A DNA stretch of 64,000 bases from Ulota crispa (taxonomy: Eukaryota; Streptophyta; Bryopsida; Orthotrichales; Orthotrichaceae), in the NCBI GenBank assembly GCA_963920765.1, contig OY987243.1:5704001-5768000 (forward strand), read 5' to 3'. Positions 17,249 through 64,000 of the stretch are shown here, piece by piece; the stretch's first letter is position 1; each line of letters starts with the position of its first letter. The notes beneath the pieces are model-generated. The model was given only the letters and a program-made list of their open reading frames with translations. It was not told the origin of the DNA and searched no databases. The translations under genes were made by a program, and so were the position numbers.

Positions 17249-17691
17249 ATATTCTATGTATGCTCCACTTACTTGGCATGAGTGAAGTGATGGATTAAAG
17301 GAGAAATATAAAAAATACCCCTCAATTTTTTCAAAATATCAAATATATCCCTTTATTGTTTGAAATGTCAAAAATACTCTTGGCTGTGTGTAGGAATATC
17401 AAGCATACTCCTAGTTCTTTGGGACCTTCGATTATTATGAAATATCAAATACATTTTTGCATTATTTGAATCATAAAAAATACCCCTAATTCTCTTGTGC
17501 CTCTTTTTGCAAATTTTTATAAATACTTAGATGGTATTGGAAAGTACAAAAAATAGATGTAAGTTGAATGCAAGCCAAAATTTGGAAGCAAGCTCTTTAA
17601 GCTCTATATAGGGTGTTTGCATGTAAGTCTATTGTGATCAAAGCCATTGCATTGATCAAATAGTGATTTGTATTGTCATTTTGATATTTAA

Positions 17692-18584
17692 CCCCTAAAG
17701 GCTTTTGAGTGAGTTTTCACCAAAATCGCTCCAAAACTGCCATTTTTAGTACAAATACCAAATTTTAGAAAAAATCATTTTTGGACACATGTAGATCTTA
17801 TAGTACTAGTTTTGGAAGATGCGAATAAATCAGAAATTTCTACCATGTAGGTTGTTGGATATTTGAGTTTGACTTGACAAAAAACCATTTTTTGTCTCTA
17901 CAAATACTTGGGCAACTGCACTTCATAAGGTCATAAATGGTTGTATCTCTTTGGATTCATTCTTCAAAGCAAGTTGGGTACACACTTTGAAAATTTTCAA
18001 ATCATTTGGAATTGTACAACACATGGGAAAAAAATAGTAAGCAAATAGAAATAGAGAATGATTCAAAACATTGAATTGTTAAGAATTTAATTATGAAAAT
18101 AAAAAATACCAATCCCAATGGTTATAAAGTGTAATAAAAAATCTACATGCTATGGCTTCATTTTTTCCAAAAAGATTGAAAATTGAGTCAAATAAAAGAC
18201 TTCAAAGTTTATTTTAGAATAGAGGACCCATGTCTACCCGCAAACAAAAAAAATCCTCATAATTATCATCTGATTGATCAAAATGGAATGATATCTAACT
18301 TACCACATATGTATAAATCTAAAAAACCAATCTAAAAAATTTAAAAAAATGTTATTTAAAAAAAAAATTGAGCTGCACAAGCTGCCTAATCAACAAAGAA
18401 AACTACATATCATGTAATAAATTTTGAACCATATAGTCAAAAGTTATGAATCTTGTTGGACTTTAAAGCTACTCCTTGGGCACATCATGTGTGAAACTTT
18501 CAAAGACAAAAAATGAAAAGCCGTTTATAATGAGCTGCTCAAGATTGCTACATTGCCAAAAAACATTGTTTGGACCTTTAGGGG
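17692..18584 (-). mobile_element. Complete T1 TTAA element (893 bp)
   Basis: It is flanked by TTAA on both sides (17688-17691, 18585-18588), with termini CCCCTAAAGG and CCTTTAGGGG. Internal blocks match the reverse complement of 59349-60258. No coding capacity. Confidence 0.8.
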
Positions 18585-18694
18585 TTAAAGTGTTACTTTT
18601 TTAGCTACCTACCTTACCAAATAGGAAATATGGTTACAATCGGCAGCTATTGTAATTATTGTTATTTCTCCTACAATTAAATAAATTGCTGTAT

Positions 18695-19366
18695 GAGCAT
18701 CTGCAATGCAATTGGTAACAATCCCGATATACGAAGTTTGGTCTTATAATAGACAACAAGTTATATCATTATATTTTTTATGATTTGAAGGGCATTGAAA
18801 ATGTTATTGTGAAAACGTCACTACAAGAGAGTAGCATTAGTTTGGACATTCTTAGTCAATTAGGGCACCTTGATTAGGACACTTTTCCGTCAATTTGGAC
18901 ATGTTTTTGTCAAAAAATTTCAATTTGGACATTTTAGTCAATTTGGACATGTCAAGACAATTTTTCTTGTAGTGTGTAATAAAATTTGGATTTGGACATT
19001 GATTGATTTAGATACATGTATCAACCGTTAGCTAGCTTCCAAAAATTTAGAAGTCTCTTTAAATCAAGCCTAGAAAAGGAAAATTTAACCAAGGAGACAA
19101 TTGGAATGTCATTGTACCATTCTCTTGCCTAAATTTTCCTTATTTGGGCTTGATTTGAAACGACTTCTAAATCTTTTGGAAGCTGGCTAACATTTGATGA
19201 GATGTATCTAAATGAGTCAATGTCCAAAACCAAGTTTTATCACGTTTTCATAAAAATATTTTCAATGCCCTTCAAATCATAAATGAACAATTTTTGAAAT
19301 TTATTGTATATTAAAAGACCGGACTTAATGTACTGGGCCTCTATGCCGGGTGCATTGCAGATGCCC
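18695..19366. mobile_element. 672 bp palindromic MITE with nested CACTA MITE
   Basis: The outer ends are GAGCATCTGCAATGCA and TGCATTGCAGATGCCC. The arms are inverted repeats sharing ATGATTTGAAGGGCATTGAA. The left arm is interrupted by the CACTA MITE at 18819-18974. Confidence 0.65.
18819..18974. mobile_element. 156 bp CACTA MITE (nested)
   Basis: It begins CACTACAAGAGAGTAGC and ends TTTTTCTTGTAGTG. The flanking triplets are CGT and TGT (2 of 3). The right arm of the host MITE reads AAAACGTGATAAAAC with no insert, giving an empty-site comparison. It is a relative of 4355-4505. Confidence 0.8.
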
Positions 19367-19428
19367 TAATAAATGGTAATTTGCTTTTTGTTTTTTGCAT
19401 TTTATGAGACATCGGAGTGGTTGAATAA

Positions 19429-19550
19429 GGATATGTTCACACTTGGTGTTAGGAGATATATTAGCAACATGAATGCAATCTAAAAGTGTGTCCAAATACA
19501 TCTAATTTTCCTTCACTACTACCCCTCCTAACACCAAATGTGAACATACA
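19429..19550. mobile_element. ~120 bp MITE, GGATATGTTCACA ends
   Basis: The left end GGATATGTTCACACTTGGTG complements the right end CACCAAATGTGAACATAC. A relative with the same core (ATGAATGCAATCTAAAAG) sits in NPF intron 6 at 36179-36287. Confidence 0.55.
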
Positions 19551-21832: not shown

Positions 21833-22837
21833 GAGTAACATACGCACCTTATTTTTCAAAGAAAAGGTGGCATTTGTCAAAACCACTCGCATTTGTTTAC
21901 GGATACGAATATATCTCAGGACTCCGCATCTGTGATAAGGCTTTTGGAGCCTTTCTCTGGGATGCTGCGCCAAGTTTGGAATTGGCTATGTCGCTAAAAT
22001 TCGAGTCATCCCACGGCATTCTATCTGCAAGGACAATGCGCTCCAATTCAAGGCCCAGCACGAAGGAACGTGTGAGGATAACTGAAGCGGTTTTTCAGGC
22101 TTCATGATTTGAACCTTGCAGGCCTCTGCACTGAGGTCTGAGGATGTTGAATACCATCAAAGCATTAGCCCTACCTGCATCAATTAGCACACGGGATCAG
22201 GGGACCTGAACTGATTTCCCCGTGCTGCAGATAATGTGGACAATACCAATATGCCGTCGCCGGGGAGGATTTCACTGTGGGTGGGCTTCAAACAAGTCGT
22301 TATCTGTCCTGTGTCTTGACACCCTGGTGTTTGTAGTTAAGTCAAGCATTTCAAGATGGATTCTTCGTTCAGCTTGACATATGTAGACTAGCACTGGATG
22401 ATCACCATTTACGGGGATTCATACCAAACACAGTGGAGAAAGTGTTGAAATCACAGTCAGATCTTTTTAGGGAGCCTGTAATGTGTAGGTTAAGTCAAGT
22501 CTCTTGACTTTCCTCCTGCTCCTTCACAGCATTTTACGGTTCGCAAGTGACAAAACATTGGTTCTATTTTGCTTTCGACTTGATGTTAATAAATGCATCG
22601 ATTGATGCAGAACGAGATATTCTCCAAGTCTCATGGTCCTCTGCGGTATTCAGGGTTGTTTACACTGGACCTGTGCTCACACTCATTGCAACCATTCCGA
22701 CTGGACTACGTCGGGAGGTGAGTTTCAGATTCGTGAGTTTGTGTTGTTTGGTTGATATGGATTGCGTTGCTTAGTGGAGAGACGTTCTTCATCCGGGAAT
22801 CTGGAAGGAAGCCAAGACATATTAACTTAACCCTTAA
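21833..22837. other. 3' flank of DUF1677 gene
   Basis: It probably includes the 3' untranslated region. No further gene was recognised; the small frame at 22547-22774 has no recognisable motif. Confidence 0.35.
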
Positions 22838-23066
22838 CCCCTGAGCGCCTGGTCAACATTATGTTGTCCATAGGGTCCAAAACTTTATCTCACTTTTTCT
22901 CTTAATCTGTACGGTGAAAACAGTCATGATTGGTCCCCATTAGCAAAAAAGGTAGTTCTTTTTCAAATCTTACAAACACTTTTTTGGATGTAATTTTCCA
23001 AGCTGTGGTGGCCATTAAACCCCCCATTTTCTTCTAAATCTTAAAATAACTCTGGGCGCTCAGGGA
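22838..23066 (+). mobile_element. 229 bp TTAA-flanked MITE (T3)
   Basis: TTAA lies at 22834-22837 and 23067-23070. The termini are CCCCTGAGCGCCT and CTGGGCGCTCAGGGA. Relatives are at 37020-37231 and 45818-46955. Its right TTAA is also the left TTAA of the next element. Confidence 0.8.
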
Positions 23067-23070
23067 TTAA

Positions 23071-23996
23071 CCCCTAAAGGACCATTGTTCCTTCGGGGGA
23101 CAAATGGGATTTTGGGCATGTACCTATGGCTAAACTACTTTGCATGATTTTCTAAAACTTTTATTGAAGGTGAGGAATTCAAAAATCCAGGGGGAAATGA
23201 AATTTTTTCTTCATTCTGACATTTGCAAAAGAAGTTATGCTTGAAATTATGAAAATTTGGGGAGGACTGCTCGCTCAGGCAGCCCTAAAACTCCTTTAGA
23301 AATTGATTTTTTTTAATTAAAATTTGAAATTGGTTCTTTAGATTTTTTCATAGGTGAAAAGCTTTGAATCATTCAATTTCAATTAAGGAGATGAAATTTA
23401 TGAGGAGTTCTTATTGACGGGAAGTTATGGATTCTCTACTCTAAAATAAACTTTGAAGTCCTTTATTTTATTCAATTTTCATTATTTTGAAAAAAAACTA
23501 AACCAAGGAAGTAGATTGTTTATCACCACATTATGACCGTTAAGATTTGCATTTTTCATTTCAATGCTTAAATTCTTAACAATTTAGTAATTTGACTCAT
23601 TCTCTACTTCTTTTTACTTATTGATTTTCCCCATGTGTTGTATAGTTCCAATTGATTTGAAAATTCTTCCACACATACCTAACTTGATCTCCTACATGGA
23701 AAAAAAAGCGCAACTTTGAGTAGAGCAACTTTTTTGTTATAAGAGTGGTCAAAGGCTTTTGAGATTTTTGGGCAGCATGGAAAAAAACTTTTTTTTTCAC
23801 TTTAGATGTAAATATCTCACTCCTCTCCATCTAGAATGAATAGATTTTTTCCCCAGAAGTACCTCTTCTAGTTTAGGATAAGATCCTATGGTTTGATTTC
23901 CAAAAAAACAAAACATAAAATCTCTTTTTACTAAACCTCCTAGAAGTGGCAATTTTCAGTGATTTTCACAGAAAAAAGGGCATGGTCCTTTAGGGG
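23071..23996 (+). mobile_element. Complete T1 TTAA element (926 bp)
   Basis: TTAA flanks it at 23067-23070 and 23997-24000. The termini are CCCCTAAAGGACCA and TGGTCCTTTAGGGG, a perfect 14 bp inverted repeat. It shares internal blocks with the other T1 copies and is non-coding. Confidence 0.85.
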
Positions 23997-24721
23997 TTAA
24001 ACATAGCGGGAGCCATTTTGTAGCTTCTGGATGACTGAAAAGTGCTCTTAGAGTGGAATAACACTGTTTTTCATCTAAGATTCCGTTGGGATATGAATAG
24101 AGCAATTCTAAAACATGTAGAAAGATAGCTTTTGCATGCATAATGTTCACAAAAGGGTCCCGCTTGCCAATTGAGTAGTAAAGATGCACCACCGTGTAGT
24201 ATATTTTGAATTTTGAGGATCTTTTTACCAAAACTCAATTTAAGTTATTAAAATGATGTATTTTTAGTTTGAGCATAACAAGCAATAGAAAGTTTACCAA
24301 ATCTTGTTTCTCCTTGTACTTTAAGATTTTGAAAAAAATCAAGTTTTGAAAATTTTATTATTGTCACAAGTTGAGTACCTATTACCACGGAATGGTTACT
24401 TTTTCTAATGTTACCAACATGGGAAGAAAAATTCTATCATGATGATCTTCATCAAGATTCACATCCACAATATAAAAAAATTGGCATAATTCAGTACATT
24501 TTGTAATTTATATGAATTTCTTTAGCATTTGCTTCAAAAATTTACAAAAATTTCAAATTTTCACCAAAGTTTATGAACATTTTTTATACATGTAGTATGC
24601 ACATACCTTCTTCAACTAAAATTATAGAATTGAATTTTGATGTTGATTGTATTGCCAAAATAATTCTTAAAAGATAATTGCAATTCCATGGAAAATCTAT
24701 GGTAGTGGGCCCATCCTTTAA

Positions 24722-25637
24722 CCCCTTAAGGACCAGGCCCCCTTTTTTAGAAACATAACAATTTTGGGCAAGTACTTGTGATTGGAGTTTTTCATATTTT
24801 AGTTTGAAATGTTAACAAAATGTGGGGACAAGGTTTATCTTTCATTTGCACTAAATTTCATGACATTTGGAATTATGAGTAAAAAGTTATGGCCTAATAT
24901 GTTGCTTTTTATGTATGAGGGGCAGCTTGGGCAGATTTTTAGAAATCACTTTTTTCAAAAAAAAAAAATTTAAAATTGGTTTAGGAGATTTATGTGAATG
25001 TAGGAAGCTTTGAATCATTCCATTTTGATCAACAAGATGAAAGTTATGAGGATTTTTTGTTTGTGGGCAATTATGGATTCTCTTCTCCAAAATAAACTTT
25101 GAAGTCCTTTATTTTACTCAATTTTCAATCTTTTTGGAAAAAAAACAAAACCAAAGGATGTAGATTGTTTATTGCAACATTATAACCATTGGGATTAGCA
25201 TTTTTCATTTCCATAATTAAATTCTTAACAATGTAGTGTTTTGAATCATTCTCTACTTCTTTTCACTTACTAATATTTTTTCATATGTTATATAACTTCA
25301 AATGATTTGAAATTTTTTTGACATGTACTTTACTTAAGTGGAATAAGGAATTTAGAGAAGCACCACCCAGATGGCCTTTTTTCCTTAGGAATTTCACCTT
25401 CCCAAGGGTAGTTGCCTGATTTTTCACAAGATGTTTTTGAATATTCAAACCATTCTAACTTCCAAACCACATGGTGAAAAGTTCTAAATTTTTTTCCACA
25501 TCTCCTAAAACTATTCTTCTACAAGATTTTACGGTCACATATGCATAAAAATGTTTTTGTTTTCAAATTTGGTTGATGCTCTAAAAATGGCAGGTTTGAA
25601 GAGTTTTTGGTGAAAACTTTACTTGGTCTTTCAGGTG
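24722..25637 (+). mobile_element. Complete T1 TTAA element (916 bp)
   Basis: TTAA flanks it at 24718-24721 and 25638-25641. The termini are CCCCTTAAGGACCA and TGGTCTTTCAGGTG. It is closest to 59349-60258 across its whole length. Confidence 0.8.
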
Positions 25638-25641
25638 TTAA

Positions 25642-27819: not shown

Positions 27820-30800
27820 ATGGGGATCGACGACAGACACCGCGGAACCGGAGCAGCCGAGTCCCAATTCACGGAGCCTCTCATTTCAGTAAGAGCACAA
27901 TGACACTGCCTTTGAAATCGTCCTTAGAGTTCATCATCTTCCATGGCCAGGTCTTTACAAATCCGTGTGTAGGAGCAAACCGGAGCGCGAGATCATGGCG
28001 GAGAGAATCTCTACGACGGTTGTATCACTGATGTCTCTAGCGACGGTACCGTTGATTACCGAGGCAGACCTGCCGATAAAGCTACCATCGGCCGCTGGAA
28101 AGCGGTTTCGTTCATCATGGGTGCGTACTAACTAACACTCTACATTTTTATTTCCTCTCTTTCTTTCGTGTACCTCCGTGTATGTTTCCAAAAAACTAGG
28201 TTTCCAGAAAAACTACACTGAATATTGCATTTAGGTTGCCTTAACATTTAGGTTGCCTTCCCTTGGCAAAATTACCTCATGACTCACCCTTGGCCCTCTG
28301 GAGGGACATGTAACTCTCTTTGTGCTACAATAACTCAAGTTTCAACTTCCCTGTGCCCTGGCTTTGGCACTTGTTGCATTCAACCTCTCCTTCTTCCTCC
28401 ATTGCTTATCATAGTAATTATTGACAAAAATTACTATAATTGTGGTCAATATGTAGATAGTGGGAAATGTCAAGAAACTAGTATGGGGCAACCTAAATGC
28501 ATTCACTTAGAATGCCTCAACAATCAGGCTGCCTTACCTTCACAAAGTTACCTAAAGACTTTGGTCACTTGGAAGGACATAAAAATCTCTTTATGCTACA
28601 GTTATTCTAAGCTTTATGTAAAGTTCCAACTTCCTTGCTCCTTGACTGTGGCGCTTGTTGCTGCACCTAACCTCTACTTGCTTCCTCCATTATTTATCAC
28701 AATAATTATTAACAAAAGTTGTTAACGCGTTATTTGTTAAATTGGGAAAAACAGAGGTACCATTTTGTACCCACCTTAAACCCAAAAAATTATCTTAAAC
28801 CAAATTTGAAGGTATCAAATTCCAACTGAGCCACTAAGATTTTTTCCTCGCAAATTCCTCCTCTCAGGTGAGGACACGTGGACCAAAAAAATGCTATGAG
28901 CTTGGTTTTAGGAGTACTCCTGAAACCTTCAAAGTCCCACTTTGTAAGCATATTCCCAAATTAACAAAATAATATGTTTACTGTAATCTTTGTAAATATT
29001 TAAATAGTGTAAAATGTCAAGAAATTAGTATGATGCAACCTAAATGCACTATTTGGTGTAGATTATTTTTTCAGAAACTTCTAAACAACACTGCCGTTCA
29101 CATCTAATCTTCCGGAGGTCTCTCTTAACGATCATGGCGATCACAAGCAAGCAGGTCTCTCTACATCAATCTCCGAATCGTGTGGATTTCGTCTTTCTTC
29201 TGTCTCTGAAGTTGCAATATATCACATCGAAATGACGTTGAGAAGTGACTTGTATGGTGAATGCTTTGATCACTGGTGATCGAGCGTGGGAGTTGAGTTG
29301 TGTTGTGGTGCCACTGCAGGGGCGGTGGTGCTGGAGAGAATGGCATTCTACGGAGTGGCGGCCAACCTGGTGTCGTACCTGACAGTCAAGCTGCACGAGG
29401 GCAGCGCGGAGGCCGTGACGCATGCGTGGGTGTGGGGTGGGGTGGCGTGGCTGCTGCCCCTGCTTGCAGGATTCGTCGCGGATTCGTTTCTGGGGCGTTT
29501 CTGGACGATCACGTACTCACTGCTGATCTACGTTGTGGTGAGCTCCATCACTGCCTTCTCCCATTTGCAAAACAGGGTTGTTTACCTTTATTTATTTCAG
29601 TCATTTTTTTTCGGTTGTGTTTTTTTTGAAAGAAGGTCCATAAAGTGATCATTTAAGTCTACCTTCTACCTAACTCATCAATGATGATAATAAATATCTG
29701 AAAGAATATGTTACGTATTCCTAAATAGAGAATGTATTTAAAACATGGTCGCTTTTAGAGCCTAATATCTTACTACAAAGCAAGCAAAGAATTGCATGTT
29801 CTATCATGCAAGACACTATAGGTTTAACCTTGGCGGGCAAGACTTGAAGCAATGCGTAGGACAAATTAGACGGCCCTTTGCATGCTCTAAAGCATTAAAA
29901 TTGAAAGGGGCTTAATTTGCCTCATGGTAATCAGTATTTATTGTAGAATTGGTCCTTATTTGCAAAAAAAATGGATCCATATTGCAAATTTTGCAATTTA
30001 AGAACAGCAAAAAATAAAAGGAAAAACAAGCCCCTTTTGTTTTTAACATTGTAGATAAGTGGTTCAAATAATTCTAAACACATTGCTATTTAGCATGTGA
30101 TTTTTTTTGTAAGAATGCTTAACCCCTAAAGCCTTGTTGTCCCCGTGGGGGACAAATGGGATTTTGGGTAGGTACCTACGCCCTCAATTTTTTTCCTGAT
30201 TTTTTGAAACTTTTTTTGAAGATAGGTAAATACATTAGCTTTTGGGGAATATAAATTTTATACTAATCTACGCCCAAAAGCAAAAGTTATGCCTAAATAA
30301 GCAAAAAATTGTGGAGATTAGGCAGCAAATTTTTTTTACAAAAACTTGAATTTTTTTTTTTTTTTTTTTTTTTTCTTGTAGGTTATAGTTTTTCTACATT
30401 TGAAGCTTTGATTCATTCCATTTGGACTAGTTATAAAAAAGCTATGAACAATCTTGTTTTTTGGGTAATTCAAACATCTTTTTGAAAAAATAAATGATAA
30501 CCTTCATTTTTGAATGCAAATTTAACATTTTTTCAAAAAAATTGTTGGAAAGGGTGAAGTTTGTTTTCTAGAACAACCTCACCATTGGGATTATTGTGTT
30601 TCAATTCCATTGCCGGGTTATTAACAATTTAAGTTTTTGTTCAATCTCGTACCTCCTTCTACCAAATGTTTTTTTAAGAATGAAAATGAATTTTTTTTGT
30701 TTTGATTTTTTTCCAAAGATTCTCAACTCCATTTTCCACCATAAAAAAATAAACCTCAAAACTTTGTGGTGCAAAAAATTGAAGTTAAAAAAGTTCAAAG

Positions 30801-33800
30801 TCAAATAATCTAGTCATGTGAGGTGCAAAAATGTTTTTTTTTTACACTTTAAATGCACATATCTTGCAATCTGTGCAATCAAAGTTTATGAATTTTTTTT
30901 AGCACATTCTTATACTAGTCTAGTATAAGATCCTACCAGTGCATTTTTTTTTGGCGATATGGAGCAAGTCTAACAAAAACTCTGATAGTTTTGAGCCATT
31001 GGTGCGAAGTCCCTCCTTTTTTTAGCCAATCATCTGAGGACACAAAGAAATCTGGCAACAACTGCCAACACAAAAAAAAAACGCTAGATCCTATGGCTAG
31101 ATATGCAAAAAGACCAATTTTCAAACTTTTTTACTCATTGCCATAGAAATGGCAATTTTGAGTGTCTTTTGACAAAATGAAGGCCCTAGAGCTTTACGGG
31201 GTTAAGCAAACCTTGCATTTGATGGGTCATTTGAAAAAGCTCTTACTATTTAAGCTAATGGAAATTTTTCAATATCCATAAGATTGGCTTTTAGATAGTG
31301 TCATAATGAGATGTGTTTTGCATGTTTCACATAAGTATAATCAAGTTTTCTTGAATTTGTAATAAGGATGCTTATAACAATTTCATATGTGAGGATGAAA
31401 GCAATGTGAGATGGTTTTAATTTGGCACTTGAGGAGCTCAATATAAGTGATCCATTCTATATGCTCGTATGTAGGATAGCTTGGAAATGGTCTCAAGAAA
31501 AGGAAGACTCATCCAAGTAAAATATAGGAGAAAAGGTTTATGTTGTGGATCTTATGGATGTGTAGGAAACACTTTTGTAGGATAACCTTTCTCAACTTCA
31601 TTATTCACATGTTTAGTGCGTTCTTTTGGATTTTTTGGATTGTAGGGTATGTTGTTGTTGACAATATCCGTATCAGCTCCAAGCTTGACGCCACATGATT
31701 GTCCCACCAATATTGATTGTGAACATGCTTCTCCATGGCAAGTGCAAACATTTTATGGTGCGCTTTACATTGTGGCAATTGGAGCAGGCGGTGTGAAGCC
31801 ATGCTTCTCTTCTCTAGGTGCAATATACACTACCAAATACCTTTTCAAATTTGGAAAAACAATAAATTCAATTCACAAATTATTAAGTATTGTATTGTCT
31901 GTGTGCCTTTGGATTGGGTGAATACACATTTTTCAAAAGTAAAATACTACATTCTTCTAAAAGAGCTTATTTGGGATTGTGAAAATTATTGTTTTTTTTA
32001 GCTAAGAGGTACAAGTCAATCAATTAAGCCCTTAGCAATGAGTTGGTTTTGTTCATAATTATGACCAGTTGCAAATAAACAAAATCCTTAGTCATGGATT
32101 TTAAGTGATTTTGTGACTCTAAAGTGTTGGTGGCTTTCAATATTTATGCAAAGAAAGGGCATATAATCCTCCAACTAGTTTCCAACCAAATTGTGGCAAG
32201 TCACTAAGATGTTTCCAATAATTGGCTACAAACTCCTATGCAGTACACTATCTAATATGCTTACAAACACTTATAGCAAAAGAAATTGACTTGAAATTTC
32301 ACTAATGATCATTGTCTCAACATGATGTAGAATGCATCAAATATTAGTCAATTTTGCATAATTTCACAATATTGGTTTCCTTAGAAAAATCTAGATGTGG
32401 AGAAACTAGAGCAACTTTGGATCACTTAGCTAGAACTTTAAAGTGTTTTCAATTACCCAATTAAAAATAGGAATTCAACAAAATGTCATATCTCCGATCT
32501 TCTCGGATTGTTTAGTTCAAGATTTTTCTTCCCATCTCATAAACGGGCATGTCTTTTTGTTTCATAATTTCAAATTTGTTTAAGTGATTAGTTTGTCATA
32601 TTGTTAACTATAACATTCTATTTTTATTTTGGCAATCCACAAGAAAGTGTCACTAATTTTTGTCAAATTAATTCCATATCTCTTCCTAGAATTTTCTAAA
32701 ACCTTATTGTAAGACAAAAATTCTTGTTGAAACTTGGTGATGTTGATTGGAGGATAACAAAATATTTCCTACATCCGCACATTTTGAAAGTAATTGACTA
32801 TAAAATCTCCAAGCCACTTAAAAAAACTAGTCTTTGAAGATTTGAGCACTTGAATGACACCGTTTTGGTATTAAAAAATTTGCCATTTTAACATTGATGT
32901 TCAAAATTCAAAAGTTTTTCCTAATGATCCAATGCTCTAAGGTACTAAATTTTTCAATCTTGTCAATTGTGGAAGGAGCGGATCAATTTGAGGAAGAAGA
33001 CAAGATAGAGCGGCGCATGAAGCATTCGTACTTCAACTATTGGTGGGTGGCAGTGACAAGCGGCTCCTTCATTTCCTTCACAGCTCTTGTGTACATTGAA
33101 GATTGTGTGGGATATGGATGGGGCTATGGCCTTCCTACCATGGGGTTGACCATTGCTATTGTTGTATTCTTGTTTGGCGCACGCACGTATCGCTACAAGC
33201 AACCCAAGGGTAGTCCCCTCACCCAAGTGGCTTGCGTCATTGTAGCTGCAGTACGCAACCACAATGCACTAGTCCCCATTGACTCCTCTCTACTTCACGA
33301 GGTTGTGCAACCTCAAAAGCGGAACTTGCATCATACAAACTATCTTAGGTATGGTCATTCTTCCCATGCTCAAACTAACTTGATCCTACTCATTTAAAGG
33401 CAACCTAAATCAACCCCTCTACTTGATGTGTGTTTTCTTTGTGTTCATGCAAACTTGTTTTACAATCTTATATTGGAGTTGTAATCAATAGTAAAAGCTG
33501 TTAAACCTATGAACACATAAAAGTACACATAAAAAGGACCATCCCATAATATACCACTCTATTTGGGGTTTGGGGTCTGTTTTTGGTTGTGGCTTTTTTG
33601 TGTCACTAGGCGCCACTGATATATATTCAAAACTTGATACAATGCACACTATTGATATTCAATATTCACATAATGGTACTATCAATCCACTTGACACAAT
33701 TAGGGCAACATACCTTACTTACACATTTCACATCTATAACCCCTCCATGGTTAGTTTTGCAAAACAAATAGAAATTCACAACATGTGCATTTTTTCAAAC

Positions 33801-36907: not shown

Positions 36908-37506
36908 AGGTGGAAGCACCCATACCCAACAATATCCCATACTCAATCAATAGGGTGCCCTATTTTCAATATCACCAAGGATAGGTGCTTTGGATTGCAT
37001 TTAGGTTGAGACCACTTAATCCTTAAGCGTCCCAGCAACAGGATCTTGTCATTGGGGCCCACAACTTTATCTCACTTTTTCTCTTAATTTGTATGGTGAA
37101 AACAGTCATGACTAATCCCCATTAACAAAGAAGGTAGTGGTCATTTTTTTTTGATGTAATTTTCCAAACTGTGGTGGCCATTAACCCCCGTTTTCTCCTA
37201 AACCCTAAAATTAACTCTGGGCACTCGGGGATTAATTTGTGTTGTGTGTTTCAAAATGAAGTAGGAAGTAATGAGCAAAAAGTAGTTTAACTGATTTCAG
37301 ATTTACTTGAGTCTAGAGACTGGCAATGGGTTCAATGCTCTTTTTGACTCCCATTCACAGTAATTTAGTTTTGCAAATAAAATTATAAAAAAATTGCAAT
37401 CCCAACATTTCTTATCTTCCTTACATGGGAAAAACATTTACTGCCTCGAACTTATTGTAGTTTGTTGCAGAATTGGTTACGTTATCGGGTATGGGTGCTG
37501 CCACCT
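36908..37506. mobile_element. TA-flanked MITE with AGGTGGAAGCACCC ends, interrupted
   Basis: The ends are AGGTGGAAGCACCCATACCC and GGGTATGGGTGCTGCCACCT, with TA on each side (36906-36907, 37507-37508), as for Tc1/mariner-type insertions. It is interrupted by a T3 TTAA element at 37020-37231. A second copy at 58128-58818 is interrupted at a different place. Confidence 0.7.
37020..37231 (-). mobile_element. 212 bp TTAA MITE (T3)
   Basis: TTAA flanks it at 37016-37019 and 37232-37235. The termini are TCCTTAAGCGTCCC and GGGCACTCGGGGA. The internal sequence TTTATCTCACTTTTTCTCTT and the rest match 22838-23066. The paralogous site in 58128-58818 (ACCACTTGAGTCATG) is empty. Confidence 0.75.
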
Positions 37507-45813: not shown

Positions 45814-45817
45814 TTAA

Positions 45818-46955
45818 CCCCCTGCGCCCAGAGTTATTTTAAGATTTAGGAGAAAATGGGGGTTTAACGCTTTAACGACCACACCCATTTTTCACAGAAT
45901 CCATTGAAAACAGGGGCTGCAAGCTTAGATTTGGAATTGACTCAAATATGGACCCATTTTCAGTAATCCAACCGTACAAATGGGAAGTACATCTTGTTTA
46001 TTGTAAAACACCAAAATTTCAGCTAGATCTACCATTGGAGGTGAAACTATTATAATGATTGAGTGAGCCGTATATGGAAAATCTCTTGTGTTTCATTCTT
46101 GTTTAGTTTTGAATGTTAACCTTTCATGCAAGTTTTGATTGAGAAGAGCCTTACATTTCTAGAAAGCAGGGTTTCCCACCTTTCCAACAAGACTAGTTTC
46201 ACACAAAATAGACAAAAATAGCAATCACAAGGTGTAGCTAAGTGGACAAAAACGGTCAAAAAACCCACTTTCTTTGCTACCCGAAAACTGTTCTACAAGA
46301 AATTTGATAATTATTTAGGAAAATCCAATTGGTGAAAACAATCAAGAATTGGCCTTAAATGTAGGATGACACATTTTAAAAATGAAGTGACAACAACATT
46401 TTAGTAGATCTTCAAATACTACAATTATACTACTACCCTATATGACAACAATACAAGCATATTTCTTAAGCAATATGAATTTTTTAGAATTGTGCAATTG
46501 AAATTTGAAATTCTTCTTGCACACTTGATGTGTTGTGTTTTTGCTTTTATTCATCTTTGACAAAAAATGGATACGTATTTTGAGGCCATGATGTATAAAC
46601 ACCATTATTTATCAACTCACTTACCCAATTGCAATGTATTTTTTAGATGGATGCAAAATTCTTGTAATCACATGCATACTTCAAGACCAAATTCCAATTT
46701 ATTGAGCAATTTCAACCTACAGGCTAAAAACCACTCCTAGCGACCAAAATATGGTCGCGTGGTCTGTAAAGGATTAATAGCCACTACAACTTGGAAAATT
46801 ACATCCAAAAAAAGTGACCGTAGGATTTGAAAAAGGACTACCTTCTTTGCTGATGGGGACTAGCCTCAATTGTTTTCACAATACCAATCAAGAGAAAGAA
46901 TGAGATAAAGTTGTGGGCCCCAACGACAAGATCCTGTTGCTAGGGCACTTAAGGA
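45818..46955 (-). mobile_element. T3 TTAA MITE with nested T4 TTAA element
   Basis: TTAA flanks it at 45814-45817 and 46956-46959. Without the insert it is about 236 bp and matches the reverse complement of 22838-23066 (ends CCCCCTGCGCCCAGAG and CTAGGGCACTTAAGGA). Confidence 0.75.
45876..46773. mobile_element. Nested T4 TTAA element (898 bp)
   Basis: TTAA flanks it at 45872-45875 and 46774-46777. Its right end reads GTGGTCTGTAAAGGA. It is an inverted relative of 47652-48559, with shared blocks such as GTGAAAACAATCAAGAATTG. The uninterrupted paralogue at 22838-23066 reads GGCCATTAAACCCC across the insertion point. Confidence 0.75.
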
Positions 46956-46999
46956 TTAAGGGCCAATTTGTGTATTTAGAGATTGGGGGTAAAGCCTAA

Positions 47000-47495: not shown

Positions 47496-47651
47496 TAAGT
47501 AAGCATGGAGGGATCACATCTTGAAACCCGCATGTGGCAGTTTTATTTGGAGATTGGCAACCATCTGAACAACTCGCCAAATAAACAAACACACTTGCGG
47601 TTATTCAATAAAATCTCAAAACCCAAACTATGGAAACACCTCTTATTTTAA

Positions 47652-48559
47652 TCCTTTAGAGACCACTGAACCATATTTTGGTTTGGAGGAGTGGTTTTTG
47701 GCCTATACAGAAAAATCACTCAACATTTTGGAAAATATTCTTGAAGAACGCTTGTGATCACAAGAATTTTGCATCCAACCCAAAAAAACGACAATAGAAT
47801 TGAATATGGGAGTTGATAAATAGTGGTGTTTATACATCATGGCCTCAAAACACGTATCCATATTTGGTCAAAGATGGATCAAAGCAACAACACAATACAT
47901 CAAGCATCCAAAAAGAATGCCATATTTCAATTGTGCAATCTTAAAAAACTTCAGATTGCTCAAGGAATACGCTTGTATTGTTTCTCTATACGATAGTTGT
48001 ACAATTGTATTATTTGAGAATCCATTGAAATGATGCTATCAATTTGTTTAAAAAAAAGCTCATCCTACATTTAAGGCCAATTCTTGATTGTTTTCACCAA
48101 TCAGATTTTCCATAACAATTATCAAATTTCTTGTAGAACTGTCTTAGGGTAGCAAAGAAAATGGGATTTTTGACCGTTTTTGACCACTTAGCTACACCTT
48201 GTGATTGCTATTTTTGTCTATTTTGAGTGAAACTAGTCCTGTTGGAAAGGTGGGAAACCCTGCTTTCTAGAAATATAAGGCTCTTCTCAATCAAAACTTG
48301 CATGAAGCGCTAACATTCAAAGCCACACAAGCATGAAAAACTAGAGATTTTCCATATATGGTTCACTCAATCATTATAATATTGTACCTTCAACGGTAGA
48401 TCTAGTTGAAATTTAGATGCATTGCAACAAACATGGTGTCTTTCACATTTGTACGGTTGAATTATTCAAATTGGGTCCATATTTGTTTTAAATGCACATC
48501 TAACCTTATTGCCTAGGTTTCTAGTGGATTTTGGGAAAATGTGTGTGGTCTCTAAAGGA
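47652..48559. mobile_element. T4 TTAA element (908 bp)
   Basis: TTAA flanks it at 47648-47651 and 48560-48563. The ends TCCTTTAGAGACCAC and GTGGTCTCTAAAGGA are a perfect 15 bp inverted repeat. Non-coding. Confidence 0.85.
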
Positions 48560-48582
48560 TTAACTACACCATGGTATTTTTA

Positions 48583-51380: not shown

Positions 51381-51383
51381 TTA

Positions 51384-53201: not shown

Positions 53202-53205
53202 TTAA

Positions 53206-54705: not shown

Positions 54706-54707
54706 TA

Positions 54708-55559: not shown

Positions 55560-55571
55560 TACCCAATTGTA

Positions 55572-56285
55572 CAGTGCCCTCCAACAAGTCCTTGTACATC
55601 CTATTCAAAGAACTTTGCTAATAGATGTTTCTCTATGATAATCAATTTTTCCTATTTGATTCATACATTGTGACTAAGTTTGTATCTTTCAACATGATGT
55701 TATGTTTATTTGGTGCAAACACTAGAAGAAAAATGGCAATAAACAACTAAGTAATTTAGTTGTTGTGCAGTTATTGTGACCATATGTAGTCATTTCATAG
55801 TTGTTATATGGTCATATATGGTCACAATAACTGCACAACAACTAAATTACTTAGTTGTTTATTGCCGTTTTTCTTCTAGTGAAAGCTAGTTAAAAGGTAA
55901 AAATATATATTTTACAAAATTTGAGCATATCACAAGTTACATTGAAATCTTTGTAGATCAATTATTTGTTACTTAGGTGGGGTCCTTTTTAGCATAGAAG
56001 ATGTGTGTATGGATGTTTCCTACATACCCATGCAATCAATTCTCAAAAATTCATCACCAATACTTTTTTAATCAATTATCATGTAAAACCATGAATTTAA
56101 TACAAAATAATTCACCAAAAATGAGGTTTTGGTTTTGAGGAATCAAATGTTGGTATGCTTGGTTGAGATTGCATAAGAATCAAATTTCTATGCTTCAAAA
56201 CAAAAAAATTACCAATTACATTTCATATTAGCAAAGTTCTTTTAAAGGCAAAACAAGGTGTATGAGGACTTGTTGGAGGGCATTG
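55572..56285. mobile_element. 714 bp TA-flanked mariner-like MITE with nested CACTA hairpin
   Basis: The ends are CAGTGCCCTCCAACAAGTCC and GGACTTGTTGGAGGGCATTG, with TA on each side (55570-55571, 56286-56287). Its interior matches the right half of the preceding element, which shows the empty site of the nested MITE at 55720-55881. Confidence 0.65.
55720..55881. mobile_element. 162 bp CACTA MITE, near-perfect hairpin
   Basis: The arms of about 66 bp differ at one position. The ends are CACTAGAAGAAAAATGGC and GCCGTTTTTCTTCTAGTG. The target duplication is AAA (55717-55719, 55882-55884). The paralogous sequence near 55160 (TTGATGAAAAGCTAG) is the empty site. The high arm identity suggests a recent insertion. 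Confidence 0.9.
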
Positions 56286-56431
56286 TACATCCAAGTGTAC
56301 CTTCCAAATGTTTGGCCATATTGTTCCCCCGCCCAAGGGTCCTTACAAGCATCTATCTAGAGGTTGGAGAGCTTTTTAGCTCCTTTGGTAAAATTCATTA
56401 ATGCTCATTTTCAACTAGTTTTTTAGTGTAT

Positions 56432-57170: not shown

Positions 57171-57174
57171 TTAA

Positions 57175-58124
57175 CGCGTAAAGGACCAAGCCTTTTTTTT
57201 TTTGAAAATCACTGAAAATTGTCACTTTTGGGATGAGTAGAAAAGTAGGAAAAAAAGTTTTTTTGAAAATTCAACTATAAGATCTTACCTTAGACAATGG
57301 GAGGTGCTTGTGGGAAAAATTTCAGCTCATTCTAGAAGAAGAGGAGTGAGATATTGACATTTGAAGTGAAAAATAAAGTTTCTTTCCCTATTGCCCAAAA
57401 ATTTCAAAAGCCTTTGACGGCTCCTATATCAAAAAAATTGCTCTACACAAAGTTGAGGTTTATTTTTCCCATGTAGAAGACCAAGTTGGGTAAATGTGGG
57501 AGAATTTTCAAATGAATTGGAGGTGTAAATCATACTTTGTAAAATCTTGCAATGCCGTAAGGCCATGAAATTTGCATATATACTAGGCAAAGTTGGAGGA
57601 TTTATGTAAAATTGAGAAATCTAAATAACTTTGATCCAAATGGTGAAATCCAAGGAATCTTAGTCTACTATAACTTGGAAAACAAAAGTCAAAAAAAAAA
57701 AATCCACAAAGAGTTAAAAAAAGTAAAGTAACAAAGTTTACAAGGGACAAAAAGAATGGAGGTTTGGGAGTCCCATACCTACCCTCAAACTAAAACTTCT
57801 CATAACTTTCATCTCATCGATCAAAATTGAATGATTCAATGATCTTTGCGTATATAAAAATCTAAAGAACCAATTTTTGTTTTTTTAATTAAAAAAATGC
57901 TAATTTGATTTTTTTTTTTGGGCTACCCACCCTCCCCCTTTTTCAAAAGTTCATGCATAACTTCTTCAATAAATATTGGAATGAAGAAAAAATCAAATGC
58001 CCATGTAGACCTTTGAATTGCCCACCTTCAATAAAAGTTTCAAAAAATCACAAAAAGTAGATTGGCTATAGGTACATGCCTAAAATCCATTTGTCCCCTG
58101 ATGGGATAGTTGGTCCTTTAGGGG
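57175..58124 (-). mobile_element. Complete T1 TTAA element (950 bp)
   Basis: TTAA flanks it at 57171-57174 and 58125-58128. The ends are CGCGTAAAGGACCA and TTGGTCCTTTAGGGG. Its right TTAA overlaps the left boundary of the element at 58128. Confidence 0.8.
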
Positions 58125-58127
58125 TTA

Positions 58128-58818
58128 AGGTGGAAGCACCCATAGCCAACACCCCATACTCAACCAATAGGGTGCAATATTCCAATCTCAGTAGGGATAG
58201 GTGCTTTGGAATGCATTCTTTTGTTCTTTTCAAGGCCAAGACCACTTGAGTCATGCCATGTGTCCTAAAGTGAAATAGGAAATAAAGAGCAGAAAGTAGT
58301 TTGGCTATTATCAAAATTACATGAATTTAGAGGTTGACAATGGTTCAAAACTCTTTTTGACTCCCAAAATTCACAATGATTTCAATTTTACAAATAAAAC
58401 TTTGAATTTTTTTCAATCCCAATACTTCTTATCGTCCTACACAGGAAAAATATTCGTTGCTTCAAATTTTGTAGTTTGTTACAGAAGCGCTTAACCCCTG
58501 AGCGCCCCAGTGTCCCATATCTAGCCTCTCCATGTTTGACGGTTTGTTGTTTTTGACTATTATGATCTTTTAATCCGTGCAATGAAAGCTTATCAAAATT
58601 TTCATACATCTGCGGATCCTAAGCCTCGTGCAATATCAACAACTAATTCTTATAGATGTTATTTCTGAACTTGCAGCCTCGTGCAATATCAACAACTAAT
58701 TCTTATAAATGTTATTTCTGAACTTGCAGTACCAAGTTGTTTGCAATGAGGTCCAACATTGCATAAATCTGGATTGGGCGCACAGGGGTTAAGTTATCAT
58801 GTATGGGTGCTTCCACCT
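58128..58818. mobile_element. TA-flanked MITE, second copy of 36908-37506, interrupted
   Basis: The ends are AGGTGGAAGCACCCATA and TATGGGTGCTTCCACCT, followed by TA. It is interrupted by a TTAA element at 58495-58788, where the other copy reads GGTTACGTTATCG (empty). Confidence 0.7.
58495..58788 (+). mobile_element. 294 bp TTAA element with internal duplication
   Basis: TTAA flanks it at 58491-58494 and 58789-58792. The ends are CCCCTGAGCGCCCC and GGGCGCACAGGGG. It contains a 53 bp unit twice in tandem (58624-58729), starting CCTCGTGCAATATC. Its ends are T3-like but its interior is different. Confidence 0.8.
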
Positions 58819-59215
58819 TAGTACCGGTACTACCAGTGTGAACGGGGGCCCTCCGGTCTCAGTAGGTCAAAGATACGTCATTCCCTGTTTTGATTAGGTC
58901 AGGAGGAACAGACAGCGGTGGGACCGTGGGAGTGTGGGAAGTTGGGAACGTTTCTCTATCAATGACCCTGAACTCTGAAGTTTCAACTGCTTCATTTTCG
59001 CTGCTTTAAGTGGGAAAAAAAAGTAAGAAAAAAACTCCATGCCTATTTTCATGTATGTGCGCAAAAACAGTTTACTTGGTGGCATTGTAAGTGCCTTTTA
59101 TTTAATCAACATAATAATAATAAAAACAAACATTGCACCTAAGCATAAAATCTAGGAGTATATGCTTGTATACTTAGATCACATAACTTGGTGCATATCC
59201 ACAAGTGAGGGTTAA

Positions 59216-60355
59216 CCCTTAAACGGCCATAGGGCATAATACATATGCTCTCATAGGATTGGTATTTGCTATTAACAAGAAGTTTTAATTTGGGATCTTA
59301 AATAGTTTACCAGAATCACATTGATCTATATTTCAATTTCTTTTTTAACCCCTAAAGGACTAGATCCCTTTTTAAGAAACATAGCGATTTTGGGCAGGTA
59401 CCTAAGATTGGAGTTTTTCATATTTTAGGCTGAAATTTTAATAAAATGTGGGGACAAGGTTTATCTTTCATGTGCACTAAATATCAAAACATTTGGAATT
59501 ATGAGTAAAAAGTTATGGCCTAATATGTTATTTTTTAGGTTCGTCAAGTAGCCTCAGCATTTTATTTTTATTTTTATTTTTTTTTCAATTTTAAAAAAAT
59601 TGGTTCAGGAGATTTATGTAAATGTGGGAAGCTTTGAATCATTCCATTTTGATCAACAAGATGAAAGTTATGAGGAATTTTTGTTTGTGGGCAGTTATGG
59701 ATTCTCTTCTCCAAAATAAACTTTGAAGTCCTTTATTTTACTCAATTTTCAACATTTTGGAAAAAAAACAAAACCAAAGGATGAAGATTGTTTATGGCAA
59801 CATTATAACCATTGGGATTAGCATTTTTCATTTCCATAATTAAACTCAACAATTTACCGTTTTGAATCATTCTCTACTTCTTTTTACTTACTAATATTTT
59901 TCCATATGTTATACGACTCCAAAAGATTTGAAACTTTTTTGACATGTACTTTACTTAGGTGGAATAAGGAATTTAGAGAAGCACCACCCACATGACCTTT
60001 TTTCCTTAGGAATTTCACCTTCCCAAGGGTAGCTGCCTGGTTTTTCACAAGACGTTTTTGAATATTCAAACCATTCTAATTTCCAATCCACGTTGTGGAA
60101 AACTTTGAATTTTTTTCCACATCTCCTAAAACTATTCTTCAACAAGATCCTACGGTCACATATGCATAAAAATGTTTTTGTTTTCAAATTTGGTTGATGC
60201 TCTAAAAATGACAGTTTTGAAGAGTTTTTGGTGAAAACTTTACTTGGTCCTTTAGGGGTTAATCTCAAATGTAGTAAAGGTGTGATACCATTCTAAATAC
60301 AAGAAAAATACCTTGTATTGTATTGGTTGGAGCTGCATGCTTAGACATTTAAGGG
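59216..60355 (-). mobile_element. T2 TTAA MITE with nested T1 element
   Basis: TTAA flanks it at 59212-59215 and 60356-60359. The net length without the insert and its extra TTAA is 226 bp, identical to the copies in the 1356-5732 inverted repeat, which lack the insertion. Bases 58821-59211 show nothing recognisable. Confidence 0.75.
59349..60258 (+). mobile_element. Nested complete T1 TTAA element (910 bp)
   Basis: TTAA flanks it at 59345-59348 and 60259-60262. The ends are CCCCTAAAGGAC and GGTCCTTTAGGGG. It matches 24722-25637 closely throughout. Confidence 0.85.
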
Positions 60356-60800
60356 TTAAGTTGGGATGCACTTGGTTATGTTTAATAATCAACTCACAAA
60401 CATGTGCTTTGATTAGTTCTCTTGTTCAAACTTTGATCTATAAATCAAGAGAGTCACGCTTTGAGTAGAAAAAGTATAGGAAAATCACAAAGAAGGGCAC
60501 AAAATTATAAAGGAATGTCTTACAAAGGCATACCTCAATCATGTTGCTGCCTTTTGCTTGTTGCTTGTTATTTGTGGCTTAATGCTCACTGCCAACTTGC
60601 CCAGTCTATGATTTTTGTAAGAGTCCTTCATCGATAGTGCTTCTCACATGTGCGGTCTCGTGCCCTTTCTTGCCACACTTTCCACAACGTACTTAATTCT
60701 CGACTGTAACTCTTTGTGAATCCAAAGACAAATTTTCTTTGACCGACATTCTTGTGATACAACAAGACAACAACAATACTATGGGTGTACTCTTGTTTAA

Positions 60801-61722
60801 CCCTAAAAGACCATGGCCTTTTTCTTATCAAAAGATACTCAAAATTGTCACCTCTATGGCAAAGAGTAAAAAAGTTTGAAAATTAAGCGTTTTGCATATT
60901 TGACCGTAGGATGTTGTGCTAAACTACTATAAGAATGTGTCATACAAAATTCAAGAACTTTGACTGCACAGATTGGAAGACATTTGCATTTAAAAAGTAA
61001 AAAACAACTTTTTTTGCACCTTGGTTGATTAGATTTTTTAACTTTGAACATTTTTAACTTAAATTTTTTGCACCACAGAGTTTGGAATTCTATTTTTGCA
61101 TGGTGGGAAGTTAAGTTGGGAATCTTGGGAAAAAATTTAAAAAAAGAATACTTAATTTCCATTCTTTAAAAAAAGATTAGGTAGAAGAAGGTATGAGATT
61201 GAACAAAAACTTAAATTGCTAATAACCCTGCTATGGAATTGAAATGCAATAATCCCAATGGTGAGATTTTTCTAGAAAGCAAACTTCACCCTCTCCAACA
61301 ATTTTTTTTTTTTTTAAATGTTAAACTTGCATTCAAAAATGAAGTTTATAAGAAATTTTTTCAAGAAGATGCTTGAGTTGCCCAAAAAACAAGATTGTCC
61401 ATAACTTTCTCATAATTAGTCCAAATGGAATGATTCAAAACTTCAAACGTACACAAAGATATAATCTATAAGAAAAGAAAATTAAACTTTTTTTTCCAGT
61501 TTTTATAAGAATTTTTTTGCTGCCCCTAGTCCCCAAATTTGTGCTTATTTGGGCATAACTTTTGCTCCATGGCATCAATTGGAATAAAAATTAGATTCCC
61601 CAAAAGCTAATGTGTTTTTCTATTGTCAAAAAAAGTTTCAAAAAATCAAGACAAAAATTGAGGCTCTAGGTACTTGCCCGAAATCCCATTTGTCCCCCGT
61701 AGGGACAATGGTCCTTTAGGAG
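60801..61722 (-). mobile_element. Complete T1 TTAA element (922 bp)
   Basis: TTAA flanks it at 60797-60800 and 61723-61726. The ends are CCCTAAAAGACCATGG and CAATGGTCCTTTAGGAG. It is closest to the intronic copy at 30123-31201. Confidence 0.8.
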
Positions 61723-61815
61723 TTAAAATTACTCCTAGAGTTCACATTTTCTCATGCCCTTATTTACTAACTCTCCGATACTGTAAGTTGCAAGGGACTA
61801 ATGAAGTCATGAAGA

Positions 61816-62105
61816 CAGCGTTTAATTTGTTAGCTAATTTTTGCATAAATCTTACCTCAAAAGTCAGTTGGCTTTTATTACACTAAGATATTTGCATGAA
61901 AAATTGGATGAAGTTGTCAGATCCTTCTTGAAGCATAATCCCAATTTGTCAAATTTTGGATGAAAGTAACTTACATTAGCAATTTTTTGAATGAATCTCT
62001 GTAGACCATTCAGTCATTCCAATTTTAACTAAATTGTCCTTACCTGCATGCATTCTAGGTGCGGGTCGCTCTACCATGACAAAATAAAAATAAAAATAAA
62101 CCCTG
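61816..62105 (-). mobile_element. 290 bp hAT MITE
   Basis: The ends are CAGCGTTTAATTT and AAAAATAAACCCTG. The flanking octamers CATGAAGA (61808-61815) and CATGAAGG (62106-62113) match at 7 of 8. It is a relative of 40309-40626; both share a block containing GTAGAGCGAC and AGAATGCATGCAG. Confidence 0.75.
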
Positions 62106-62113
62106 CATGAAGG

Positions 62114-62949
62114 CTAAAAAATTAGGTGTGGGGAAATCTATTACAGTAGTTGATTAGCAGACGTTTTCTTTGTGCGGGTCCTTTGACTCTTATCCTTTAA
62201 TGATCAAGGTACTTGCTCTAAAGTGGCTGTTCCACGTGTCACCACAGCAATGCATGGCAGTATTTGAACTGGGGTGCATTCAAAGCAATGTAGAGTGTAA
62301 CTCAAGTGCTTTCGAAACTTGCGTTGGAGTTAGCAAACATGTACAGTACTCACCTTTCTTTTAGGTCGCCAAAAAATAATCTGGAATAGAAAAACTACAT
62401 TCAAAAAATTCATTATTGGGTATAGCTTGTCATAGTTTTTTGCCGAGGTTTCATTCACAAGTGAATTTTCATCCACTTGGTCATATTCATTTTTGTTGAA
62501 TCACACAAAAAAATCTTGCGTTAATGTTGTTTGGTTATTTCCATACATACATACAAGGAATCATGGATTTAGGGAGATTTAGGAAGTTATTAGTAAATAT
62601 CCAATATTACAGGCGGTAGACATGAACATGACAGTTTAGTGTATTTGTTATTAGACCGTTTTTAAGGCCAAACCTACCTAGAGGTGGGGCTAAACAATTA
62701 CGAAGAGAAAGCTACCTTGGTTGAGATGGCATTGTAAATAGAAACATGATCACTTTTGTGCGGAAAGTGTTAAAAGTTGAGTGTCCTCTATCTATACAAA
62801 AAGTACAGGTTATTCTTATCAATAGCTCCTTTGTTTCAAACTCAAAATTTATAGTATTCATTCTACTATATTGGAGTGGAAATGTACAAGTTAGTAGGAA
62901 CTCTCTGCTACTTTGTTTATGATTGATTATATATTCAAATTCACCTTCA
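62114..62949. other. AT-rich intergenic DNA
   Basis: No gene was recognised. Confidence 0.3.
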
Positions 62950-62953
62950 TTAA

Positions 62954-63896
62954 TCCCTAAAGGACCAAGGGTGGTTTTTGAGAAAAAATCTCAGAAACTG
63001 CCAGCTTTTAGGGCATTGCCCAAAATTGAAACTAAAAACTTTTTTCTGAATTTCGACTGTACAAAAGTGTGCTAAACAAATAAATGAATACGTGCAAAAA
63101 TTCAGCCCATTTGACCCGTGGATTGTAAGATTATAAGTTGTGAACTGAGAAAACAACTTTTTTTCATTCTTGTAAAACAACGTCTACGGACTTCAAGCCC
63201 TCATGGAGTAATTTTTTTTGCTCTACTCAAAATGAGGTATTTGACAATTTATAAGTATATGATGTTAGGTCAACTCATGATAAATTTCAGAAGCAAATAT
63301 AGAACCTAGCTTATTCTAAATCACTTTGTAATGTAAGGAGGTTAAGTGGATTGACAACACATTAGTCATTTTTTCATGATTTCTTGTGGAATGAAGAAGT
63401 CTTTATTTTCAAAATCTGAATAGTAAAAAATTTAGAGACAAATATTTGGAATATTTGTAAAAGGTTTCAAGAAATTTGAATTTATAGATAGCAAGATCGT
63501 ACGGCTTGAAGTTAGAAAAAAATGTTTTTTCTTGAAATTGCCCAAACATAGTTAACAAAGTGGCTCCTCTTAATATATGATTGAGATCTCATTTTTTTTA
63601 AACAATTTTATATCATATTTTATCAATTATATACATGCCAAACTTCAAAAGTTGATGAGAGTTTTAGCATAAGATTCTCCAATGATGCCCAAATTGCCCA
63701 AGCTACCCAAATTCTTTTGTGCAACATGACTTTTAAATCGGGCATCCCTTTGGGGAAAACATTACATATCTACTTGGGAGATACATATTTACACCTTGTG
63801 TAACAATTTTGAGGACATCTAGTAAAAATTAACTTTGTATGACCCTACCCAAGTTCTCAAGTGTTTGTTGAACAAACACTTTTAGTCCTTTAGGGG
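62954..63896 (-). mobile_element. T1-type TTAA element (943 bp)
   Basis: TTAA lies on the left (62950-62953) and TCAA on the right (63897-63900). The ends are TCCCTAAAGGACCA and TAGTCCTTTAGGGG. The interior is more diverged than in other copies. Confidence 0.65.
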
Positions 63897-64000
63897 TCAA
63901 TTGGATTGCAAAAAAAAACTCACCTAACAATTGGCTCTCTACTAGCTACATTGGACAGAAAAACGTCCATCTCAACGTTTACGGGTTAAAAGTGGCTCAA

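Follow-up and report, generated by a model that had tools for sequence, protein, structure and literature searches.

TTAA-flanked short elements of probable piggyBac origin in the genome of the moss Ulota crispa

The window examined here, a 64,000-nucleotide stretch of the moss Ulota crispa (bases 5,704,001-5,768,000 of contig C2, OY987243.1, in the 274.8 Mb, 157-contig assembly GCA_963920765.1, whose contigs C1-C10 have lengths of 41.4 to 15.8 Mb), contains many short elements flanked by TTAA. A first-pass annotation, made from the letters alone, had sorted these into four size groups (T1 to T4) and proposed a piggyBac-like origin. We mapped 20 such elements, with limits set from a scan for ends, BLAST among copies and alignments of nested insertions, and consider it very probable that they are miniature inverted-repeat transposable elements (MITEs), i.e. 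short non-coding copies, of piggyBac DNA transposons. The mapped elements are as follows:

136..465, minus strand: T1, partial (toward the window edge), with end TTAACCCCTAAAGGACCATTGT at 465
646..1239, plus strand: T1, partial, with a TTGA flank of the right end at 1239
2218..2451, minus strand: T3, 234 bp, serving as the empty counterpart to the nested insertion at 59345
4637..4870, plus strand: T3, mirror copy of 2218-2451, within a 1,227-bp perfect inverted repeat
13247..13910, no strand given: TTAG/TTAA-flanked element, 664 bp, with weaker ends CCCCTAAATGCCC / CCTCTAAATG
17688..18588, minus strand: T1, 901 bp, TTAA at both flanks
22834..23070, plus strand: T2 (220-237 bp family), its right TTAA also belonging to the adjoining T1 at 23067; uninserted copy for the 45864 insertion
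23067..24000, plus strand: T1, 934 bp, CCCCTAAAGGACCA at both ends
24718..25641, plus strand: T1, 924 bp
30119..31205, plus strand: T1-like, 1,087 bp, ends degraded
37016..37235, plus strand: T2 (220-237 bp family), uninserted copy for the 45864 insertion
45814..46959, minus strand: T2 (220-237 bp family), interrupted by T4 at 45864-46777
45864..46777, minus strand: T4, 914 bp, within T2, TTAA each side
47648..48563, plus strand: T4, 916 bp, ends TCCTTTAGAGACC
57171..58128, minus strand: T1, 958 bp
58491..58792, plus strand: 302-bp element with T2-like ends and an unrelated body
59212..60359, plus strand: T3, interrupted by T1 at 59345-60262; 234 bp without the insert
59345..60262, plus strand: T1, 918 bp, nested in T3, TTAA each side
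60797..61726, minus strand: T1, 930 bp
62950..63900, no strand given: T1, 951 bp, with a TTGA right flank, read inwards

Fifteen of these elements lie within 17688-63900, the interval for which the first-pass annotation had counted about 18, a slightly high figure, and five precede it at 136-13910. Together the 20 cover 12,707 bp (19.9% of the window), with 10,651 bp (23%) covered in that interval. Two elements have poor ends (13247-13910 and 30119-31205) and two are partial (136-465 and 646-1239). T1 is the commonest group. The division into four size groups was upheld, except that T2 proved to comprise two families with only their ends in common: a 220-237 bp family (22834, 37016 and the split copy at 45814), and the 302-bp element at 58491, which was rejected as a T2 member because its body is unrelated to that family and the two are alike over 16 bp of end only. 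The element at 13247-13910 is 72% identical to elements adjoining two transposase loci.

The element ends carry inverted repeats of CCC[C/T] type, about 13-14 bp long; those of T1 are short and inverted, of CC[C/T]T type, with CCCCTAAAGGACC at both ends of the copy at 23067-24000. The ends and TTAA flanks originally quoted are present in the window, where 29 TTAA+CCCYWNANNGNCC ends were found (allowing one mismatch) compared with a mean of 0.125 in resampled sequence. We also used a degenerate end pattern, TTAACCCYWNANNGNCC, which was derived from ends in the window and in transposase loci and is therefore partly window-trained. This pattern matches the window exactly at nine sites, versus none in eight first-order Markov resamples, and at 41 sites with up to two mismatches (resample mean 3.4); with up to three mismatches, its 71 matches are near background (resample mean 50). 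The genome-wide search for TTAA-linked ends that had been proposed as a check yielded 32,120 exact matches to the pattern, versus 24 for its reverse, and 67,836 with up to one mismatch, versus 896. Similarly, CCCCTAAAGG occurs 18,843 times, versus 213 for a reversed control, and 15,411 of its occurrences (82%) lie directly 3' of TTAA. End density in the window exceeds that of the genome 1.2-fold when only exact ends are counted and 1.8-fold when one mismatch is allowed; corrected by these factors, the window's 19.9% coverage would correspond to such elements forming about 11-17% of the genome, a figure extrapolated from a single window and not a measurement.

Since the outer T is present at 15,411 of 16,065 TAACCCCTAAAGG sites (96%), the target is TTAA, and not TA. 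Four nested insertions, two in the window and two elsewhere, provided uninserted copies for comparison, and all four fit a 4-bp duplication. The T2 copy filled by T4 at 45864 reads GGGGGT-TTAA...TTAA-TAGCCACTACAACTTGG, with a single TTAA in two uninserted T2 copies. The T1 inserted in T3 at 59345 has TTAA on each side. For a T1 inserted in T1 on C7, one TTAA is found at the site in both L062 and L063 and none in the window copy at 23067; the remaining case is a T4 inserted in T4 on C6. An intact TTAA is seen in the empty copies of two of the four cases.

A search with PF13843 (DDE_Tnp_1_7, the piggyBac transposase) gave at least 120 matches in the genome, with a best E-value of 1.3e-73; 116 of 528 candidates were scored, so that this number is a lower bound, and some elements give more than one match. 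Stop codons are present in all but 10 of the 120, and all three aspartate (Asp) motifs were recognized in 10 of 30 loci by ad hoc motifs in one frame, the rest being decayed, frame-shifted or missed by the motifs. Four open frames were tested against Pfam, and each matched PF13843 and no other family at E 0.001. An open frame of 365 amino acids in L042 matches piggyBat 9c0f (E 2.5e-20) and also 6x67 (E 7.2e-19), which we take to be T. ni piggyBac, and its alignment to 9c0f places VDE, TDN and GVDIVDQ opposite LDE, MDN and GVDRADQ, corresponding to the three Asp motifs. This frame runs uninterrupted over 4311-5408 of L042 (minus strand), with no CCC-type TTAA pair recognized in 9.9 kb, and may represent a fragment of an element, or else a gene that has been domesticated. 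We also observed two pairs of oppositely oriented transposase matches with identical scores, one on C2 (36765124-36766008 and 36779670-36780554, about 14 kb apart, both without stops) and one on C7 (18203169-18204302 and 18223004-18224137, about 20 kb apart), which are perhaps inverted duplications.

Element limits around the transposase domains were sought at two scales. A search of ±1.5 kb around each of the first 30 transposase matches found TTAACCCCT at none, the shorter TTAACCC at five and end pairs at none; the elements proved to be 5-8.5 kb long, and were resolved in wider stretches. For example, L039 (1863-6889) has a copy on C10, E18, with 90.5% identity across 5,029 aligned bases, and their homology is bounded on either side by TTAA (TTCA in E18 on the left) followed by CCC[C/T]TCAT[C/T]GCC. 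Paired ends were also identified at E14 (5,102 bp), E30 (5,360 bp) and L040 (6,010 bp). The observed pair score was reached in none of 60 Markov resamples for L039, E18 and E14, in two for E30 and in one for L040. A pairing at 1595-8215 of L044 was dropped, as its right part matches a T1 MITE, and an apparent left end of L041 (at 1317) was rejected as part of a MITE at 1317-2242.

Comparison of T1 with the transposase loci revealed extensive common terminal sequence. Part of T1 (23647-23865) matches downstream of the transposase domain in L025, L026, L034 and L038, and a T1-type end was therefore predicted shortly beyond each of these loci. In the further stretches fetched (E25, E26, E34 and E38), all four end in TTAA + CCCCTAAA[A/G]GA (i.e. 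TTAA+CCCCTAAARGA), and the 3'-terminal ~360 bp of the 23067 T1 (positions 569-581 to 934) are 72-78% identical to the four loci, through the TTAA. Because the 3' homology among the loci is longer than the T1 match, starting well ahead of it and running into it without a break (633 bp between E25 and E34, ~700-715 bp between E26 and E34), this tail is part of the coding element and not a later MITE insertion. Left ends were found at two of the four (E26 and E38), matching T1 positions 1-216 and 1-189 at 75-79% identity and defining elements of 8,530 and 8,255 bp, respectively; E38 contains another repeat, so that part of its length represents a later insertion. A fifth locus, L041, has 57 bp in common with the T1 right end at 82% identity. 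In a FastTree phylogeny of 32 transposase domains (30 family matches together with L043 and L044), the loci with T1-type ends (L011, which is L041, L025, L026, L034 and L038) form one clade with support of 1.0, and loci with other assigned ends fall elsewhere; the ends track the transposase tree. Given that T1 has its terminal regions in common with piggyBac-coding loci, and that these form a single transposase clade, T1 is an internally deleted piggyBac. Three features of piggyBac were looked for and found in T1, namely TTAA duplication, CC[C/T]T ends, and a longer relative with the same ends and a transposase. The coding copy that the first-pass annotation had suggested looking for was thus located for T1, with right ends at four of four DDE_Tnp_1_7 loci and left ends at two; most of the transposase frames are broken. 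Two of the coding elements with T1-type ends also have open frames with acidic stretches (DFLDSQ...) located 5' of the transposase domain (L055 1421-1876 and L058 1868-2836), perhaps a separate 5' exon.

Several observations weigh against a piggyBac origin for these elements. In E26 and E38, ~5.5 kb separate the transposase domain from the left end upstream of it, which is defined by sequence common to both loci and to T1; no left end was found for E25 or E34 within the fetched sequence, and the middle ~350 bp of T1 (about 217-569) is without a match in the coding elements. At the nested sites, the empty copies for T1-in-T3 (CTGA) and T4-in-T4 (TCAA, in three uninserted copies shown) have one 4-bp site and no intact TTAA. 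No end pair stood above the resamples in five of the 10 loci scored, the observed score being reached in 14 (L041), 60 (L042), 54 (L043), 25 (L044) and 46 (L052) of 60. Beyond T1, the first 38 bp of the 58491 element are 82% identical to the left end of L040, a modest match (E 1.6e-6 when only ends are compared, 2e-4 with whole loci); the one link between T4 and a transposase is a right-end motif (CCCTTTAGCGACC / CCCTTTAGCGACCA at L043, whose left end was not found); and neither T3 nor the 220-237 bp T2 family has a match in 14 long transposase loci, which are a small part of the 120 matches.

These last points bear on whether T3, T4 or the 220-237 bp T2 family were mobilized by something other than piggyBac, and resemble T1 in ends and target only. 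No transposase locus examined carries T3 or 220-237 bp T2 sequence, and for T4 a single right-end motif (CCCTTTAGCGACC, at L043) is alike, the full-length T4 matches in L043 and E14 (the latter with ends CCCTTTAGAGACC / CCCTTTAAAGACC) being other T4 MITEs upstream of the transposase. Nonetheless, the end layout and TTAA-type flanks of these groups are the same as those of T1, and T4 also has empty-site evidence, such that we regard a separate origin as unlikely. The proposed transposase class is well supported for T1, and the comparisons are suggestive for both T4 and the 58491 element; for T3 and the 220-237 bp T2 family, which are tied through ends and target only, it is no more than possible.

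A second alternative assigns the short elements to Kolobok or Sola3, superfamilies that likewise target TTAA, and treats the piggyBac transposases as an unrelated population. Kolobok, reported from some algae, also duplicates TTAA, as does Sola3. Kolobok termini are given as 5'-RR...YY-3' in a passage of PMC9587614, and the ends observed here are CCC...GGG, starting with 5'-CCC in place of 5'-RR. Furthermore, T1 has hundreds of terminal base pairs in common with piggyBac-coding loci at all four of the loci tested, which counts against both superfamilies for T1; judged without any search for Kolobok or Sola transposases, this explanation seems very improbable. That the MITEs are instead Tc1/mariner (TA) or PIF/Harbinger (TTA/TAA) elements, both listed among plant MITEs in a passage of PMC10004981, with ends misread by one or two bases within a TTAA that contains either target, is scarcely credible, given the outer T kept at 96% of sites, the 45864 insertion, where TTAA flanks the element on either side and occurs once in the empty copies, the lack of a 2-bp TA or 3-bp TWA duplication, and a matching transposase that is piggyBac.

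Under a piggyBac origin, transposase from the coding elements would have bound the ends common to the short copies, and the bound copies would have been cut out and re-inserted at TTAA, with a separate transposase lineage acting on each end group. The genome carries several transposase lineages side by side, which differ from one another in end sequence. We see about even chances that this reflects a long-lived piggyBac radiation in mosses, with many coexisting lineages each possessing its own end code, and with MITEs that, at roughly a tenth of the genome or more, rival flowering plants' complement of Tourist and Stowaway elements.

Stowaway and Tourist elements of plants are short, non-coding and present in high copy number, like the moss elements, but differ in target (TA and TAA/TTA) and in transposase. 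The closest likeness is to piggyBac and piggyBat, of a superfamily known chiefly from animals, insects above all, in a DDE_Tnp_1_7 domain with aligned Asp motifs, TTAA duplication and CC[C/T]T ends (the end rule as given in a passage of PMC2872659). The moss system differs in its host and in coding elements of ~5.0-8.5 kb, compared with the 2.1-3.5 kb given for intact beetle elements in PMC12732532. The CMITEs, piggyBac-type MITEs of Acropora corals, are described in a passage of PMC2872659 as ~100 bp long with one conserved interior, whereas the moss has several families of up to ~0.95 kb. Angiosperm piggyBac-type MITEs have the superfamily label in common with ours, in a passage that gives neither copy numbers nor a coding partner (PMC10004981). 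Although such angiosperm MITEs are listed, the literature passages available are consistent with the initial remark that elements of this sort are not known to form a major part of plant genomes: 1,230 piggyBac copies, or 0.00% of the genome, are given for C-fern in a passage of PMC6890710, plant piggyBac is called occasional, with red algae named, in a passage of the 2025 beetle paper (PMC12732532), and piggyBac is said to have been isolated from insects, fungi and plants in one of PMC10813416. No report of piggyBac in mosses was found among the matches listed from open-licence literature, which is weak evidence of absence in print; in the single moss genome paper among these matches, the string occurs at two places, both times within 'piggybacking'. 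Taken together, the elements are of a known kind, and what is unusual is their host and their scale, with an abundance unusually high for land plants.

The ~68,000 recognizable ends and no fewer than 120 transposase matches of this genome show that piggyBac elements were able to multiply strongly in a land plant. A piggyBac origin is also worth checking for TTAA-flanked repeats in other bryophyte assemblies, and the genome offers a natural set of diverged transposase/end pairs for studying end recognition by piggyBac.

Divergence among copies was examined for T1 and T4. Among the 40 of 10,360 T1 candidates that were scored, full-length or near-full-length copies other than the query itself show 84-89% identity to it, with 76-82% for six partial neighbours; the best identity between fetched T1 copies is 91.5%, excepting three copies on C9. 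These lie in C9:9402903-9444800 (L064, L065 and L066), at three places identical over 3,942 bp including the T1 copy and its flanks, one of which is inverted relative to the others, and would represent either segmental duplication or an assembly artefact, not transposition. Full-length T4 copies among the 40 of 2,401 candidates that were scored are 90-93% identical. With the closest MITE copies seen differing by at least 7%, segmental duplicates apart, and with stops in all but 10 of 120 transposase matches, the system looks silent now, and no sign of recent activity was seen.

Other repeats were noted in the window. The perfect inverted repeat that contains the two mirrored T3 elements, one in each arm, spans 1356-2582 and 4506-5732 (1,227 bp, 100% complementary) with 1.9 kb between its arms, and short inner stretches to ~2670/4270 match too; it arose very recently by inverted duplication, or else is an artefact of assembly. 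A tandem array with an 8-bp unit, counted at 33 register copies, occupies 8401-8772. A family of fold-back elements of ~300-430 bp, distinct from the others and self-matching on both strands, is present at 14411-14842 and 48575-48973, as well as in L012, L022, L034, L038 and L044; the ends of the copies at E25 and E38 resemble TCAACCCCTCGGTGTGCACATATCAA, and one copy lies within the long element E38. A further dispersed inverted-repeat family has several copies close together at 54688-56180, and occurs also in L026 and L043. Elsewhere in the assembly, the plastid contig C157 encodes PsaB. Its three top matches among solved structures are chain B of 7ksq, 6l35 and 8htu, photosystem I structures of the moss Physcomitrium patens, at 1681 bits, ahead of 9lut at 1643 and the following structure at 1603, which agrees with a moss host. 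Outside this contig, 46 scattered partial psaA/psaB matches on C1-C10, the longest ~700 bp, are probably plastid DNA in the nuclear genome.

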